A DNA stretch of 64,000 nucleotides from positions 581,396-645,395 of the forward strand of contig NW_012236531.1 in the NCBI RefSeq assembly GCF_000787575.1, in the 5' to 3' direction. The position numbers were made by a program, and so were the translations under genes. Positions 7,219 through 14,888 of this stretch are shown here, piece by piece (position 1 is the first letter of the stretch; the number at the start of each line of letters is the position of its first letter). The notes under the pieces are model-generated. The model saw nothing but the letters and a program-made list of their open reading frames with translations. It had not been told where the DNA came from and did not search any database. Source of the stretch: Acytostelium subglobosum LB1 (Eukaryota > Evosea > Eumycetozoa > Acytosteliales > Acytosteliaceae).

Positions 7219-8061
7219 ATGTCATTGAGAAAGAGTAAAAGTACAACAACATCTTCAAGAAGTAGAAATGATGGATTGTTTGTATCAAGTCCTACATCAC
7301 AACATGTAGCCAACAACAATGATGATAATAACGATGATAATAATGATGATATAATTGGTGATGAAGAGGATGTTAGACATACACAGATTGAACACCAAGA
7401 TGATGTATTGATTGCTGATGAAGTGTTGACTCATCACATGAATGAAGAGGAGTTGGACCATCTCTACAACACTCTAATATTACAATTGAATGAAGGAGAC
7501 TTGGCCGAACTATTCAACCTACATGATCCTGTGGAGAGACAGATTGCCGAGACAATCAAAGAAGATCGTGGCAACGCTTCATTAAAATCAAGCCTTACAT
7601 CATCTGTTGGAAGAGCAACATCGCCTGAGATGATGTCAATGAAGACACCTGCTGCTCCCGCTGCATCGCCTCCCATCGCCGCCACAACGTCACCATTACC
7701 CTCGCCGCCATTATATACACCAGAGGATATGAATGCAGCCGACAGACTACTGGCATCTTGGATCCGTACCGGCTTATCTTTGATGACATTTGGAATTGGA
7801 GTCGGTTCCAAGATGGTCACATCACAGAACTCAATCACATTTGTCACGTCATTGGTATTCTTTGGCACTGGCATTGTATGTGTTCTTTGGGGTTTACTAA
7901 AGAACTACTATGTCACCTATTATCTATTACGAGGCTACTACCTACCCAGCACACTCAGTATCTTCATCATTCTCCTACTATCTTTGTTGGTAACAGGTGT
8001 CAGCTACTGGGCTGTTGTAACAGACTTTGACGGAGGACCAATCATTCCCATTCCGACTTGA
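7219..8061 (+). CDS. DUF202-like membrane protein
   Basis: Single exon, 280 residues. The first 175 residues are polar, with an Asn/Asp run and an Ala/Pro stretch, and probably cytosolic. The C-terminal third starts with ADRLLASWIRTGLSLMTFGI, which matches the DUF202 signature (ANERTFLAW-IRTGLAL type) found in bacterial YidH/YidG-like proteins and at the C-terminus of eukaryotic VTC polyphosphate polymerases. Three hydrophobic segments follow (about 183-205, 208-228 and 250-268), as in DUF202. There is no SPX or polymerase domain, so this is a stand-alone DUF202 protein. ATG at 7215 lies four bases upstream in another frame and encodes only seven codons; the coding ATG is 7219. Confidence 0.8.
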   Translation: MSLRKSKSTTTSSRSRNDGLFVSSPTSQHVANNNDDNNDDNNDDIIGDEEDVRHTQIEHQDDVLIADEVLTHHMNEEELDHLYNTLILQLNEGDLAELFNLHDPVERQIAETIKEDRGNASLKSSLTSSVGRATSPEMMSMKTPAAPAASPPIAATTSPLPSPPLYTPEDMNAADRLLASWIRTGLSLMTFGIGVGSKMVTSQNSITFVTSLVFFGTGIVCVLWGLLKNYYVTYYLLRGYYLPSTLSIFIILLLSLLVTGVSYWAVVTDFDGGPIIPIPT

Positions 8062-8265: not shown

Positions 8266-9890
8266 GTGATGTCGACAAAGAGAAGCGCACAGATATCATT
8301 CAAGGTTGTGGACAAAGTTGGTGAATGCTCACCTTGTATAGCCAACTTTCGTTGTGGACCACCTCCACTCAGCTTCCTCAACGATGAAGACACAAGCTTC
8401 AAATCATTGACCAACAAGCACAAGAAACAACGTGTCCTACTCTCCAACTCATCAATGGTCGAATACGAATCCGAACCAACTCGTACCGAACAAAGTGATC
8501 TACAACAGTATGTCTCAACTCGAGTTGAGATGTTATTGATTGACTTGATTGAGCAAGAGTGACTAACATACTGCTGCTTGTAGATTGGCTATTGGAAGGT
8601 ACAATGACAGGACTGGCATGATTGAATTGATACCAATTAAGGATGTTTGTCAGATACAGCAATCGATCATTGGTTATGAGATGCGTGCGAAGGAGAACTT
8701 TGACGAGTTGTCATACATGGATAGGACAAAGATGCTCTCCACTAGTTTTGGAAGCAAGTTGTCAAAGAAGATCATTCACAAGATCGAGACTGGCGATGTC
8801 GGCACGCTGAGCAACGAGAAGACCAAAGCTGCCGCCGAGAGCGTCACCAACAAGAGAGCCAACGTCGATGCTGCCGCCAGAGACGAGGATCTGCCGCCAC
8901 ACAACAAGGAGACAGACGTACCAAAGGAGATCTACCCAATCGAAGAGCGTAAGTCATTGTTCATTCTCGAGCTCACTCATACATGTCCACATCACTCACT
9001 CGCGAGTTCCTTACACATACAACAGTCATGCCACAGGACGTCTACTTTGCAATCAATCCACAATACTTTATTGGTCTGGCAAAGGCTCCAGAGAAGGCAC
9101 CAGAAGACATGCCCAAGTACATCAAGAATAGACTGCCACACATGTTGTACACGTACAAGAGGAATGATGATGATGAGCTGGTTGCAGGTGGTGACAGAGA
9201 TCAAGACGATATCGAACATGAGAGCAGGATTCTCACTTATATCTATTACATTACAATGTAAGTAACATCACATCATTGGTAGTTCCATTGGAATGGAGCT
9301 GGATATTGCATGTCTAACAATCAATCCAAAATCCAATCAATATAGTATGAAGGGTTTGGAGAGTTCAAGAGTCACGCTGATGGAGGAGACTTTGAGAAAG
9401 AACAGAGTACATCCATTCGTGGCCAAGTACTTGTGCCAGACCTTTACTCAACAATATGACCAAGTGTAAGTGTTCCAAATGATTGTTGGACAACAATCCA
9501 GGTAATTGACTGACTCAATCATTCAATCAATCAATCAATCAATCAACCAACAGTAAGAGCAAGATGAGCAATGATCATATTTCAAAGTTGCTAAACTATG
9601 CAGTCATCCTTATTCTGCATCTGGAAGACTTTAGAGTCAAGCATGAGGCAGTCCAGCTGCTTTCAGAGGCTTTCAACATGCCAGACTACAAGTATGTTAC
9701 ATCCATCTCACTCCTTACCCAACAACAACAAACTCAATCATACTGACTATTATTCCACCTTCATAGGCTTGAGAAGCATTTCAACAGAGTTGGATGTGTC
9801 GTGGCAAGGAATGGTCAGTACAGAGACTATAAGCTGCGTGCACCATTGAAGCTTCCAGAGGTCAGGGATGTCCAAAGGAAGAAGAGATAA
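8266..9890 (+). CDS. rpa49: RNA polymerase I subunit A49 (POLR1E homologue)
   Basis: Subunit of the TFIIF/TFIIE-like A49-A34.5 module of RNA polymerase I, acting in rRNA synthesis in the nucleolus. Six exons: 8266-8507, 8584-8948, 9026-9257, 9346-9465, 9554-9691 and 9767-9890, giving 406 residues with all phases consistent. The N-terminal part is a beta-rich dimerisation domain (GRYNDRTGMIELIPI). The linker has the family's FGSKLSKK motif. The C-terminal tandem winged-helix part includes HPFVAKYLCQTF, LNYAVILILHLEDFRV and a basic tail VRDVQRKKR. Length is close to yeast A49 (about 415). Introns end in CAATCAATCAACAG-type sequences. Nothing is missing. Confidence 0.9.
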
Positions 9891-10040: not shown

Positions 10041-11303
10041 TTAGAACGACCGAGGTTGGATTGGTATTATTCCACCTGATGTCTGACTGGAGAAGATCAG
10101 GAAATGCTTTCGATCATCTAACAATCTGAGTTGGATATTCTTGATTGATAATAACGTGTTCTCTGTGAAGGATATCGTGAAGGTGTTCAATCTCTCAAGT
10201 GGATAGCATTTTGAATTGATCATGTTATAAAGGTAGTCACGACAATAAGTTATAGTTTTCTTTTGGATACATCTTACTACCAGGTGAAGATGTTTGATTG
10301 AGTCGGGTATTGGATCAGGTCTGCCGGTGGACTTGGCCAGTGTGAGCTCTGTCACTGAGCTTGGTATCACCTTTGGATGTGGTAGATGATCTGCATGAAT
10401 TTGAAGACGTGTCACCGATGGTGGAATTGATCCATCATTCAATGACTGATGGAATGATTGCCCTAAGGTGAGTGATGTGAGATTGGGTGGAAGAACACCA
10501 ATTGGTAGGAAGGGCCAGTTGTATTCCATGTTCAATTTCAATGATCTTAATGAGTTTGGTAATGTTCCAACTTCAAAGGGTTGATTGTAAGAACATGATA
10601 CTATATTAAAGTCTCTGTTCTCAGTGCTACCAAACCTGAGTGAGATTAGACCAGAGGGAAGTGAACCCAACTGAAATGATTGATTGTAGGTCTCACCAAA
10701 CTGGAGCGAGATGAGACCCGACGGGAGTGAGCCAACGTCTATTTGTTGATTGAATAATGAGCCAAAGGTAAGTGATCTTAAACTGGATGGAAGTAGACCT
10801 ATGGGAATAGGCTGATTGAACTTCTGACCAAACTGGAGTGATGTAATGGATGTAGGAAGAGCACCAACAGGGATCGACTTGTTAAAGTATGTTTGAAATT
10901 TGAGTGAGGTCAGCTTGGTTGGAAGAGATCCAATGAGAGGTGTCTCGTTAATGTTATACAACATCGATGTGACTTCAGCTGGGATAGGTATCGTCGAACC
11001 AAGATGATCGTATTCAATGTATGTATCTACTTGTATAACTGTTCTCTTGTTAAGTCTAGAGTAATTAAATGAATGATTAACATGACATGACCTCAAACTG
11101 CTATAGCGTATCCATAACCAATGAATGAATGATGCTCTATGTTTATACCAATATCTACATACAAATGCCAAACAATACCTATCAATATTATCTTCGATGT
11201 AATCAACAATCTGTCTAAGTATTAAAATGGGGAAGTATCGAGGGCATTCGACATCATCATTTGAGTTGTTGTCAATATTGACATTATCGATAGTACTATC
11301 CAT
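10041..11303 (-). CDS. FNIP-repeat protein with F-box-like N-terminus
   Basis: Single exon, 420 residues. Residues 20-60 (YFPILILRQIVDYIEDNIDR and CLAFVCRYWYKH) look like an F-box. From about residue 120 there is a ladder of 22-23-residue FNIP/LRR-type units of the form LPxxLxSLxFGxxFNQPIxxG (LPTSITSLQFGQKFNQPIPI, LPSSLRSLTFGSLFNQQIDV, and so on), about eight copies. FNIP repeats are greatly expanded in dictyostelids; most copies have no known role. A likely job is substrate recognition in an SCF-type ubiquitin ligase, by inference from the F-box plus repeat layout. One unit near 10600 (FGSTENRDFNIVSCSYNQPF) is irregular. Confidence 0.88.
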   Translation of the reverse strand: MDSTIDNVNIDNNSNDDVECPRYFPILILRQIVDYIEDNIDRYCLAFVCRYWYKHRASFIHWLWIRYSSLRSCHVNHSFNYSRLNKRTVIQVDTYIEYDHLGSTIPIPAEVTSMLYNINETPLIGSLPTKLTSLKFQTYFNKSIPVGALPTSITSLQFGQKFNQPIPIGLLPSSLRSLTFGSLFNQQIDVGSLPSGLISLQFGETYNQSFQLGSLPSGLISLRFGSTENRDFNIVSCSYNQPFEVGTLPNSLRSLKLNMEYNWPFLPIGVLPPNLTSLTLGQSFHQSLNDGSIPPSVTRLQIHADHLPHPKVIPSSVTELTLAKSTGRPDPIPDSIKHLHLVVRCIQKKTITYCRDYLYNMINSKCYPLERLNTFTISFTENTLLSIKNIQLRLLDDRKHFLIFSSQTSGGIIPIQPRSF

Positions 11304-11458
11304 TCTTAATGGTACATATATATATTATTATTATTATTTGTTGATAATGAACAAGTCACAAAAGAAATAAATGTGTCTTGTCTAAAGTTCATTCATTTAT
11401 CAATGACGTGTATTTGTACACAAATACATAATTATAAGCTTAGGTGAAGTGGAGGAGG

Positions 11459-12096
11459 ATGAAAGTATTACTTATAACAGCAGTCTCTGATAATAATGTC
11501 ATTGGGAAGGATGGCTTGTTGCCTTGGTCTTTACCTGATGACTATCAACACTTTCAAGACACGACAAGAGGATGGCCTATTATAATGGGTAGACGTACAT
11601 TCGATGATCAACCTGTACGCCCCATCCCCAACTGCTTCACAATCGTTGTCACCAGTGACACTCATCTTACCGATCCCAATGGTCTCATACTCGAAGAGCG
11701 ATCCGGATCACTCCTTCGAACTCGTTCACTCACTGAAGCAATGACCTTTGTTAAAGAGTTTGAGGAGGTGTACATAGTTGGAGGTATGTTATGCTCATAA
11801 CAGTGGAAACCCATTCATTCGCTCATTCTCTCACTCAATCAATCACATTAGGCCGCAGGATATACGAGGATTCACTACAGTTTGTCGATGAACTGATAAT
11901 TACACATGTACATTCGGAAGATGTTGTTGGTGATACACATCTTAATCTGTTCCCTGAGAAGGGATCTTTGCGTGATAGGAACAATGACCTCTGGGAGGTG
12001 GTCAGATCACACTACCATGCCAAAGACGATAGACATCAGTTTGACTACACCATCAAGTATTATAAACGTGTGACACTGCGAACAGTGTTTGCATAA
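11459..12096 (+). CDS. Dihydrofolate reductase
   Basis: Reduces dihydrofolate to tetrahydrofolate with NADPH. Exons 11459-11783 and 11852-12096 give 189 residues; the junction falls inside the GG-RxxY motif. Landmarks: ITAVSDNNVIGKDGLLPW (active-site loop, LPW), LPDDYQHFQDTT with the catalytic Asp at the E. coli D27 position, IIMGRRTFDD (NADPH-binding MGRxT), VYIVGGRRIYEDSL (GGxxxY) and ELIITHVHSEDVVGDTHLNLFP. It is monofunctional: no thymidylate synthase follows. ATG at 11459 is chosen because it directly precedes the conserved N-terminal strand. It converges on the RelA/SpoT-like gene, with 60 bases between stops. The sequence reads bacterial-like, but the gene has an intron and host-like codon use. 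Confidence 0.93.
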
Positions 12097-12156: not shown

Positions 12157-13011
12157 TTAGCATTCGCCTTTGTATTGACAATGATTATTCTCGGCATGGT
12201 TGTGCATGTCCACTGTGCGCACTTGCACTTCGATCTTCTGATTGAGTGGACCAACTACATCGAATTGGAGAGATTGATATCCGTTGGACTTTGGACACTT
12301 GATGTAATCATCATACGTTCCTTTGACCTCGGGGAAATGCTGCGTCAGAGTCGATCTGAGCCTGTAGCAGTCTTCCTCCTTCTCCACGATTGCTCTAATA
12401 CCAAACATGTCGTGAACCTCTTCAAACGTCAGTTGTTTGCCCAACATCTTGCGCCATATACTATAGATGTGCTTTGGTCTACCTGAGACTTGACGCACGG
12501 CTATACCACTCCCATTGGCTATCAGTCGGGCCGTGTCGACAAAGTCTTGAATGTACATCTCTCGCTCTCTTCTCGTGCTCTGGAAGTGGTCTGCAATCTG
12601 ATTATACGTGTCTGGATAATATCTCCTGAAGCATATGTCCTCAGCTTCCCATAGCTGGCGTGATGGATCCATTGATATTAATTGATATTTACATTGTTGA
12701 ATTGACATGTCGGTGGCAGTTTGATTATGAGCGCTTGAGTTCGGCATGTCGGTTGGAGTTAGTATATGCCGCGTCACTCAATCAATCCATCCATTCCATC
12801 CGAAGACATACAATGAATGATTATAAATTGCTTGTTGACTTGATATCCTACATGGATCTAATGATCTTGAACTACGTATTATAATAGGTGATGGTGATAT
12901 ATACAGTGCTGAGACAAACATTAACATTGCCAATACTATCAGTATCAATGAATGGTTGTTCTTCTCGCTTCTAATCTCCGAAGAGGTAGAGCCTACTACT
13001 ATTGCAGTCAT
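12157..13011 (-). CDS. Membrane-anchored RelA/SpoT-type (p)ppGpp synthetase homologue
   Basis: Predicted alarmone synthetase: transfers pyrophosphate from ATP to GDP/GTP. Exons 13011-12812 and 12733-12157 give 258 residues; the intron carries a perfect TACTAAC branch-like box. Residues about 21-39 (LILIVLAMLMFVSALY) form one transmembrane or signal-anchor helix. The synthetase domain spans about 100-250: GRPKHIYSIWRKM (GRxKxxYSI), VHDMFGIRAIV (the metal-binding Asp), YDDYIKCPKSNGYQSLQ (DYIxxPKxNGYQSLH), KIEVQVRT (catalytic Glu in ExQxRT) and MHNHAENN. There is no HD hydrolase domain and no TGS or ACT regulatory domain, so it is of the small synthetase type. The usual MHxxAExGxxxHWxYK ends as MHNHAENNHCQYKGEC. 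Activity is inferred from the conserved residues. Confidence 0.88.
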
Positions 13012-13058: not shown

Positions 13059-13117
<59 letters not shown>

Positions 13118-13995
13118 GATGTATGTTGCTTATGCAGAGCCGCATTCAATTCTTTGATCGGATCGAAAGATTGATGACGATGCTATAAGCAATGACACAT
13201 TGCTTGAATAGCTTTACAATGAATAATAATACATATAATATGAATGTTGTTGATACTAAAGAATGAAGACTGGTGATTCACCAACACAATGACTCATTCA
13301 AGGTGTTTGAATTGCGACAACATTGTTGAGATTGATTGGGGGTGGTAACATAAAGGAAGAGACACAAGTCCAAGCAAAATTGTCCTTTGACAAAGCCCAG
13401 TGACTCAAAGTAAATGAAGTTCCCCAATCTCAATGATATACAAAGGCAAGAGTTATCTCGTTCATCGAATATTCAAAGTTGTTGAGATTGATTATATCAT
13501 TAATTAATTAATACAATATAAAATGATGAAGTTATTTATGTCTTACTTGATTTAGAATGGAGGGTGACCAATCATCAACTTCATTTATAATTTGTTGTTG
13601 AAAATATACAAAACAAATAAGGTAAGGTAAGATTGACATAATAATGTAAGTCATTGTAATGGTTAGATACTTATACTATCTCCATTATAATAACAACACT
13701 CACTCACAAACACACTTAAACACAAATACAAGTCAATCATTGGTAAAGTGAGGTTGAAAAGATAATTGATTGACAGATAGATAGTGGGTGTGAGTGATGA
13801 TGAGTAGTCGGAGACAGTACATACTTGGAGATGAGGGGGTTAGAACATTTCCGATGAAGGGCCGACCTAACCTTACCATATCCATATCAATCTCCTTATT
13901 GGTATCTGTCTTTGATTAAAAAATATATATATAAATACCAATATTGATTGATTGTTATAACTCAACATTTTAAATTATCTCTACAACAACATACA
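13012..13995. other. Gene-free spacer, 984 bp, between divergent genes
   Basis: Contains a (TTGA)n tract at about 13061-13117 in the 5' region of the RelA/SpoT-like gene and AT-rich sequence near 13500-13600 and 13915-13950, the latter a likely TATA/promoter region for the gene at 13996. I see no supported exon or RNA gene. Confidence 0.6.
13061..13117. repeat. (TTGA)n tetranucleotide microsatellite
   Basis: Fourteen nearly perfect TTGA units directly upstream of the start codon of the RelA/SpoT-like gene. Read on the minus strand they could encode a spurious Ser-Ile-Asn-Gln repeat; I treat them as 5' leader or promoter sequence. Confidence 0.9.
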
Positions 13996-14888
13996 ATGTA
14001 TAGATATTTATTAATAATATTATTTGTTTGTCTTTGTTATGAGGTATCCAATGCCTCTCAACCATCATCATTCTATTTCTTAAAGTCAACTGGTATTGTT
14101 TGTGTCACAACTCCATGTCCATCATGGGAGATCAATCTTGTAAATTCCCAACAAAACTCAATCACTGTTCATGGATTGAACTTTGCACCAAGTGTCAATG
14201 AAACAAAGGTCTTTGAGGCCAAAGAGGATGAACGTATACTCTATGGCTACTGGTGCAACACCAAAGTCAATGGACAAGATGCTGTCGAGTTCAAAATACT
14301 TGGTGCTCATAGAATGATTGCCATCGATGGATATGGTCCTCCCAGAGCTGGTGATTACCTCTCCCTGTAAGTCCCTCCTCCTCCTCAATCAAACAATCTC
14401 TGTCACTAACATGATTGTATTTTATATATAGATCCTACTACCAATGGAAATGGGTCAACTTCCCCTTCATTACCGGACCCATTGTATCCCCACCTTCCAA
14501 TCCATTCTTGGATTATCCTCACATGGATAAGGAATGGCTCAGGGATAAACTTTATAATCAAGACAAGAAACATCGTGCAATTGTTCAAGCTACAGTTGAC
14601 ACCTTTGGTAAAGTGCTGGTCACTGCAATCTTTGTTAGTTTGGATGATCCTGAACAACCTTGTCCTGGTATTGTGCTCATTGGATGTGATGATGCTCATG
14701 TGATGACATTCAATCGTGATGCCAACAGATGTGTATCATTCGATACATGTGTTGAGCCAGGAGCATGCATTCTCTCCATCCCAGTATGTCCAAAGGGTTA
14801 CAATTTAGTCTCAATTCCATCAAGACCATATGGATGTCCAAAACACTTCTGTGATCCCGATTTCCTCAATCTCACTTGGGATCAATAA
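13996..14888 (+). CDS. Secreted cysteine-rich protein (DUF6748-like?), copy 1 of a tandem array
   Basis: Exons 13996-14366 and 14432-14888 give 275 residues. Residues 1-20 are a signal peptide (MYRYLLIILFVCLCYEVSNA). The mature part starts with YFLKSTGIVCVTTPCPSWEI, a Cys-x5-Cys-Pro segment like the start of DUF6748-type domains; I am not sure of that family name. The C-terminal half has a cysteine pattern ending in CPKGYNLVSIPSRPYGCP and HFCDPDFL. The same two-exon structure, with the intron at the same point (TCC after L), occurs in the broken copy at 15438-16398, and the last part recurs at about 16455-16723. This is the only copy with an intact start and frame. Role unknown; secretion is well supported. 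Confidence 0.8.

Follow-up and report, generated by a model that had tools for sequence, protein, structure and literature searches.

The 64,000 nucleotides of Acytostelium subglobosum LB1 DNA analysed here (contig NW_012236531.1, positions 581,396 to 645,395; hereafter the window) carry on the minus strand, at 12157..13011, a gene for a synthetase of the RelA/SpoT homologue (RSH) type. Once spliced, the gene gives an intact frame of 258 amino acids plus a stop (stop codon 12159-12157). It is made up of a proposed exon 1 (12812..13011; 66 codons plus 2 bases), an intron of 78 nucleotides (12734..12811) and an exon 2 (12157..12733), which holds the synthetase as judged from the spliced frame and a Pfam match. 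Across the genome (30.7 Mb in 56 contigs) no other RelA_SpoT match was reported, and no second synthetase copy was found when the same genome was searched with the protein.

Synthetase domain and catalytic residues

Residues 151-256 (12166..12483) match the Pfam RelA_SpoT synthetase domain over positions 1-110 of the 113 in the profile, with E=2.5e-30. The preliminary description of this locus, made from the DNA letters alone, had read all the synthetase motifs here with no hydrolase, TGS or ACT domain, and both statements held. The four motifs lie in a single minus-strand frame (12483-12445, 12414-12388, 12309-12268 and 12237-12214), and no Pfam match to a hydrolase, TGS or ACT domain was found in the 258-residue protein. 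One other listed Pfam family, Smim3, scored 11.9 bits, below its cut-off of 25. An HD match was also absent from the synthetase protein, the only HD_4 match reported in the genome lying on contig C44. Ahead of the domain, residues 93-150 (12484..12657) form front helices homologous to the linker of long RSHs, from residue 194 of E. coli RelA.

Residue conservation was measured against 121 bacterial RSH sequences. Asp175 of HDMFGIR (12409..12411) and Glu235 of KIEVQVRT (12229..12231), which we take from Rel structures to be catalytic, fall in columns that are D and E, respectively, in 121/121 of these sequences. The predicted fold of the structure model is Rel-like, as judged by fold comparison rather than by coordinates (VIA-align over the top 1000 Foldseek chains). 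These results agree with the catalytic reading of the preliminary description. While the catalytic residues are retained, four of the six residues proposed in print as regulatory cross-talk sites are changed, and the EXDD motif reads TYDD, keeping DD and losing E. By our own mapping, which takes C327 as its reference point, F345 of PMC3153485 corresponds to the Phe of EFDD, although that paper numbers the motif 348-351. Judged from its sequence, the amoeba protein looks like a RelA core freed from regulation.

Relationship to long RSHs of the RelA class

To place the synthetase within its family, the protein was compared with NCBIfam models and with sequences in the PDB. The NCBIfam models for RelA (9.1e-43), spoT_relA (3.8e-42) and SpoT (4.9e-31) matched far better than the YjbM-type synthetase model (6.6e-7; 29.3 bits against a cut-off of 320), every score lying far below the curated whole-protein cut-offs, as is inevitable when a single domain is set against long models. 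In the PDB, three E. coli RelA sequences matched at about 5e-38 and other Rel and RelA sequences at 2.5e-22 to 5.5e-31, while chains of the RelP/RelQ type were weaker, at 1e-4 to 1e-7. The top PDB match covers residues 194-350 of E. coli RelA and begins at query residue 93. This start at RelA residue 194 lies far ahead of the Pfam domain, so the linker helices of long RSHs are present in the amoeba protein. Structural matches to RelP/RelQ begin at model residue 33-42, so that they miss the first front helices.

A phylogeny of the synthetase domain, which the preliminary description had proposed, was computed from 45 rows; the only row resembling a small alarmone synthetase (SAS) had been dropped for lack of overlap. 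In two tree runs the query fell inside the RelA clade, apart from SpoT and Rel, with support of 97/94 and 96/94, the RelA labels of some rows having been assigned by us from their match. We conclude that the amoeba gene looks, from its sequence, like a long RSH of the RelA class reduced to its synthetase half, RelA being a bacterial enzyme of starvation signalling, rather than a RelP/RelQ small synthetase. The term "small synthetase" in the preliminary description is thus apt for the architecture, which consists of the synthetase domain only, but not for the sequence, which is that of a cut-down long RSH by NCBIfam, PDB and tree. A small-synthetase origin is disfavoured by the NCBIfam and PDB sequence scores, the other SAS subgroups of Atkinson 2011 not having been compared singly.

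Origin of the RelA core

DNA relatives of the gene were sought in prokaryote, phage, viral and plasmid collections. In the plasmid collection, tblastn matched 67 records, 40 of them listed. The top seven (42.1-45.1% identity) were labelled, or read by us, as gammaproteobacterial RelA, and they are followed by rows for Acinetobacter (40.0%), Neisseria (39.6%), Legionella relA (38.4%), Listeria (38.1%), SpoT (36.8%) and Bacteroidota (30-35%). The genome collection gave at least 584 related stretches; the best 80 were 41-47% identical, and 78 of the 80 titles are gammaproteobacterial by our own reading, in a scan whose pattern, IYSIWRKM, favours gammaproteobacteria. The two remaining titles name Martelella and Chryseobacterium, the latter a genome with three synthetase matches, and both were assumed to be mislabelled or mixed records. 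Among 299 genomes of the phylum, 129 held matches at E<=1e-30, and the best identity was again 47%. No donor closer than 47% was found among the best 80 of the 584 stretches, nor at E<=1e-30 in these 299 genomes. The phage collection yielded 32 matching records, with at most 42.1% identity among the 20 listed. The sole related viral contig (L082) consists of a RelA frame followed by open reading frames (ORFs) that we read as prophage-like, and a viral or phage origin was rejected. Two small genomes (G121 and G276) were considered as possible models because their RelA pieces have short open frames; they gave ORFs of 209 and 253 amino acids, which may or may not be intact genes.

Given the sequence matches and the placement in the RelA clade, transfer from proteobacteria is the simplest reading, and the RelA core was probably acquired horizontally from them. 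We put at roughly two in three the probability of the full account, in which a proteobacterial RelA core was transferred, lost its regulatory parts, gained an intron and was retained as a pyrophosphokinase.

Several observations weigh against this account. The query sits on a very long branch (3.21 changes per column), the approximately unbiased test does not reject a position immediately outside RelA (p-AU 0.173), and the tree held neither an SAS row nor a eukaryotic RSH. RelA sequences do not all score above all Rel sequences, those of Acinetobacter, Neisseria and Legionella being close to Listeria in identity. In the protein itself, the His of the SLH motif, present in 121/121 bacterial sequences, is Gln223, the next Thr is Phe224, and the last helix is three residues shorter and without its conserved Gly and Trp; these changes could lower activity or alter the substrate. 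Model residues 181-186 have a predicted local distance difference test (pLDDT) value below 50. We found no usable literature source on the role of the conserved SLH His. A reduction of ppGpp synthesis is described for the H354Y change of E. coli RelA (PMC4154780); by our own count, H354 is the later His of AAHW, which the amoeba protein retains.

The loss of this otherwise invariant His, the shortened last helix and the absence of all regulatory domains would also suit a transferred RelA gene that is now decaying or without catalytic function, or that has been reused for nucleotide binding. The open frame, the retention of the listed catalytic residues and the conservation-weighted identity speak for a working enzyme instead, though they are still compatible with a recent loss of function, and we consider a dead remnant unlikely.

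Bacterial contamination of the assembly would account for the fact that the nearest sequences are bacterial, a result that comes from prokaryote, phage, viral and plasmid collections only. The synthetase locus, however, lies inside a 1.84-Mb contig, with an FNIP-repeat gene (10041-11303) and an intron-bearing dihydrofolate reductase (DHFR) gene on one side and more amoeba-like genes on the other, and the convergent DHFR gene ends 60 bases from the synthetase stop (12157). FNIP repeats, which we take to be a dictyostelid hallmark, matched 207 times in this genome, where 150 of 3777 candidates were scored, and had no match in any of 14 prokaryote control genomes. As the synthetase gene itself also has an intron and no bacterial sequence above 47% identity was found, contamination is highly improbable.

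The intron and the status of exon 1

The preliminary description had derived its gene structure from a splice model of the form GTATGT...TACTAAC...AAG, and this model proved sound. It restores the intact 258-residue frame from a GTATGT donor, a TACTAAC branch-like site and an AAG acceptor, whose AG is the first one after the branch-like site. The pattern GTATGT..TACTAAC..AG occurs 8 times, the synthetase intron included, in a genome sample of 255 kb, compared with a mean of 0.65 and a maximum of 2 in 20 mononucleotide shuffles, so that it is about 12 times commoner than in shuffled sequence. Candidate introns gathered mechanically in this genome gave 70 junctions, of which 42 passed a donor filter that we had set ourselves; when unfiltered donors were weighted across all 70, GTAAGT and GTATGT led. 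By eye, many candidates have a CTAAC/CTAAT-like site about 20-35 nucleotides before CAG or TAG, and the AAG acceptor of the synthetase intron is less usual among them. Taken together, donor, branch-like site, acceptor, length and frame all fit this genome, and as a sequence feature the synthetase intron is convincing.

Exon 1 is open from the ATG at 13011 in the frame required by splicing. The hydrophobic helix that the preliminary description had noted in it is present (residues 21-39, 12895..12951), with a Kyte-Doolittle mean of 2.49 over 19 residues, and it would be a signal anchor or a signal peptide if translated. Of the 189 open ATG frames that lie outside long ORFs, exon 1 among them, it has the highest hydrophobicity; the runners-up reach 2.41, 2.36 and 2.35, and 41 of the 189 frames reach 1.6. 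Some of the runner-up frames may be real exons.

The composition of exon 1 resembles that of non-coding DNA. Against 399 coding chunks, which are slightly flattered because they were scored by the model trained on them, its codon score ranks at the 4.5th percentile, and 81% of 318 non-coding frames match or exceed it; on synonymous codons only, it stands at the 7th percentile, and again 81% of non-coding frames score at least as high. GC content is 34.5% in exon 1, 33% in the 500 bases upstream and 45% in exon 2, while coding sequence averages 48.6%; of 423 coding chunks, 5.4% have a GC content as low as that of exon 1. By codon position, GC is 0.33/0.42/0.27 in exon 1 versus a coding mean of 0.50/0.39/0.54. 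When exon 1 was sought elsewhere in the genome, the sole match was exon 1 itself. With codon usage and GC of this kind the coding status of exon 1 is unproven, and our judgement inclines modestly towards its being translated.

These figures bear directly on a rival model, in which translation of the same enzyme begins at the in-frame ATG at 12708, in exon 2, or at 12747, within the proposed intron, with exon 1 serving as untranslated leader or promoter and the product a soluble cytosolic synthetase. Besides the non-coding look of exon 1 in codon usage, GC and codon-position GC, this model is favoured by homology that begins only at residue 93 and by the presence of in-frame ATGs near the domain. 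It has to be set against the strong, frame-preserving intron signals, an exon 1 that is open from an ATG in the spliced frame and the highest hydrophobicity among the 189 frames. In the genome sample, the one comparable long ORF with an N-terminal helix likewise begins in low-GC sequence (0.263). We regard a cytosolic start as a serious, though not the favoured, possibility.

If exon 1 is coding, it could supply an uncleaved membrane anchor or a signal peptide. In the first case the charges after the helix would favour a cytosolic enzyme. In the second, the hydrophobic core spans 12 residues and ends next to VSA/LY, in keeping with the -3,-1 rule of signal peptide cleavage, and the synthetase would be lumenal in the secretory pathway or outside the cell, as exported bacterial alarmone synthetases are. 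The existence of such bacterial enzymes (PMC12691689) and of a secreted dictyostelid signal made by an acquired cyclase (PMC10559540) lends the signal-peptide reading some plausibility. We nevertheless think it improbable: signal peptides usually have fewer than the 20 residues found here ahead of the core, the positive charges that follow it favour a cytosolic C-terminus if uncleaved, and exon 1 is itself unproven. The membrane anchor of the preliminary description was therefore too strong a statement, as the codon usage of exon 1 is non-coding-like and a cleavable signal peptide would account for the helix equally, though the helix itself stands.

Neighbouring genes and other features of the window

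The DHFR gene lies on the plus strand at 11444-12096, with exons at about 11444-11783 and 11852-12096 and a GTATGT..TTAG intron, 11444 being a mechanical GTG start. Its top PDB match is 3ix9 (1e-25), presumably a bacterial DHFR, and for this reason it may possibly have been acquired as well. A second DHFR-like stretch on contig C48 (410747-411357) outscores it and contains four in-frame TGA codons; it may be a pseudogene, contain an intron or come from a source decoding TGA as Trp.

Immediately upstream of the synthetase gene is a 56-base CAAT/ATTG repeat tract (13060-13115). Shorter tracts occur at 9523, 14926, 42909 and 63297, and similar repeats within several candidate introns. On the plus strand, 13948-14370 encodes a secreted-looking protein with a DUF6748 match (3.2e-9); ORFs resembling it by eye at 14415, 15642, 15985 and 16475 perhaps form a tandem family. 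Also on the plus strand, 7219-8061 encodes a protein of 280 amino acids with a C-terminal DUF202 membrane domain (8.6e-7).

A hydrolase partner in the same genome

The genome also encodes a Mesh1-type hydrolase (C44:63303-63671; L083 1285-1941, minus strand), a single ORF of 218 amino acids with HD and ED motifs, which matches PDB entries 3nr1 (E=3.9e-51) and 5vxa, a MESH1 entry (3.6e-50). Enzymes that probably make and probably remove guanosine tetra- or pentaphosphate, (p)ppGpp, are thus both encoded. On this point PMC3153485 is inconsistent, crediting dictyostelids with Mesh1 in one passage and reporting no hydrolase for Dictyostelium in another.

Comparison with known systems

The preliminary description had called alarmone synthetases best known from bacteria and plastids, but an amoebal synthetase of this kind is not new: synthetase-only RSHs have been known in dictyostelids since 2011, when Atkinson 2011 reported divergent ones (divRel) in D. 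discoideum and D. purpureum (PMC3153485). The authors proposed transfer from bacteria and an extracellular signal, and noted that ppGpp had been reported in Dictyostelium while repeat attempts by others failed (PMC3153485). We found no work following up the divRel genes in a literature largely without subscription journals. Like divRel, the present gene is a synthetase-only RSH of a dictyostelid with a Mesh1-type hydrolase in the same genome; compared by description only, it differs in that divRel was reported as unassignable to a subgroup whereas it can be placed near RelA. New here are a member placeable near RelA, its reduced architecture, in which cross-talk sites are altered, and a segment that may serve for membrane attachment or secretion.

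With RelA of beta- and gammaproteobacteria, the amoeba protein shares the synthetase domain and front helices, up to 47% identity, the DD of EXDD and its position in the tree. It differs in lacking the HD-like domain and the TGS/ACT half, in its four altered cross-talk sites of six, in TYDD for EXDD, SLQ for SLH and a short last helix, and in the eukaryotic intron of its gene. RelP/RelQ resemble it in consisting of a synthetase domain only, but their sequence match is much weaker (E 1e-4 to 1e-7). Exported alarmone synthetases (EAS), such as SaEAS of Streptomyces albidoflavus, are bacterial and 17% identical to the amoeba protein over the structural alignment; their signal peptide has been demonstrated, in contrast to the hydrophobic segment of an exon 1 whose coding is unproven.

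Proposed function and significance

Under the account we favour, the catalytic core of a proteobacterial RelA would have entered the slime-mould lineage horizontally, the hydrolase-like part and the entire C-terminal regulatory half would have been lost and an intron gained. The enzyme would use ATP as pyrophosphate donor and GDP or GTP, at the 3' position, as acceptor, giving (p)ppGpp or a close relative. Synthesis would proceed without ribosome control, its output being set by expression and location, and the Mesh1-type hydrolase, whose gene lies elsewhere in the genome, could remove the product.

By analogy, a RelA core captured by a social amoeba and stripped of its ribosome-sensing control might also sit on or across a secretory membrane, its alarmone acting as a localised or secreted signal between cells, in parallel with the captured diguanylate cyclase. 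Each half of this idea has a precedent, since bacteria possess exported alarmone synthetases (PMC12691689) and the secreted cyclic di-GMP (c-di-GMP) of dictyostelids is made by a horizontally acquired diguanylate cyclase (PMC10559540), yet we find it doubtful. The link to starvation and dictyostelid development drawn in the preliminary description is speculation.

Whether eukaryotes without plastids make (p)ppGpp is an old question, and it becomes testable here because one genome holds both a RelA-derived synthetase and a Mesh1-type hydrolase. For the RelA family, the contrast between retained catalytic residues and changed cross-talk residues offers a natural test of which RelA residues regulate.
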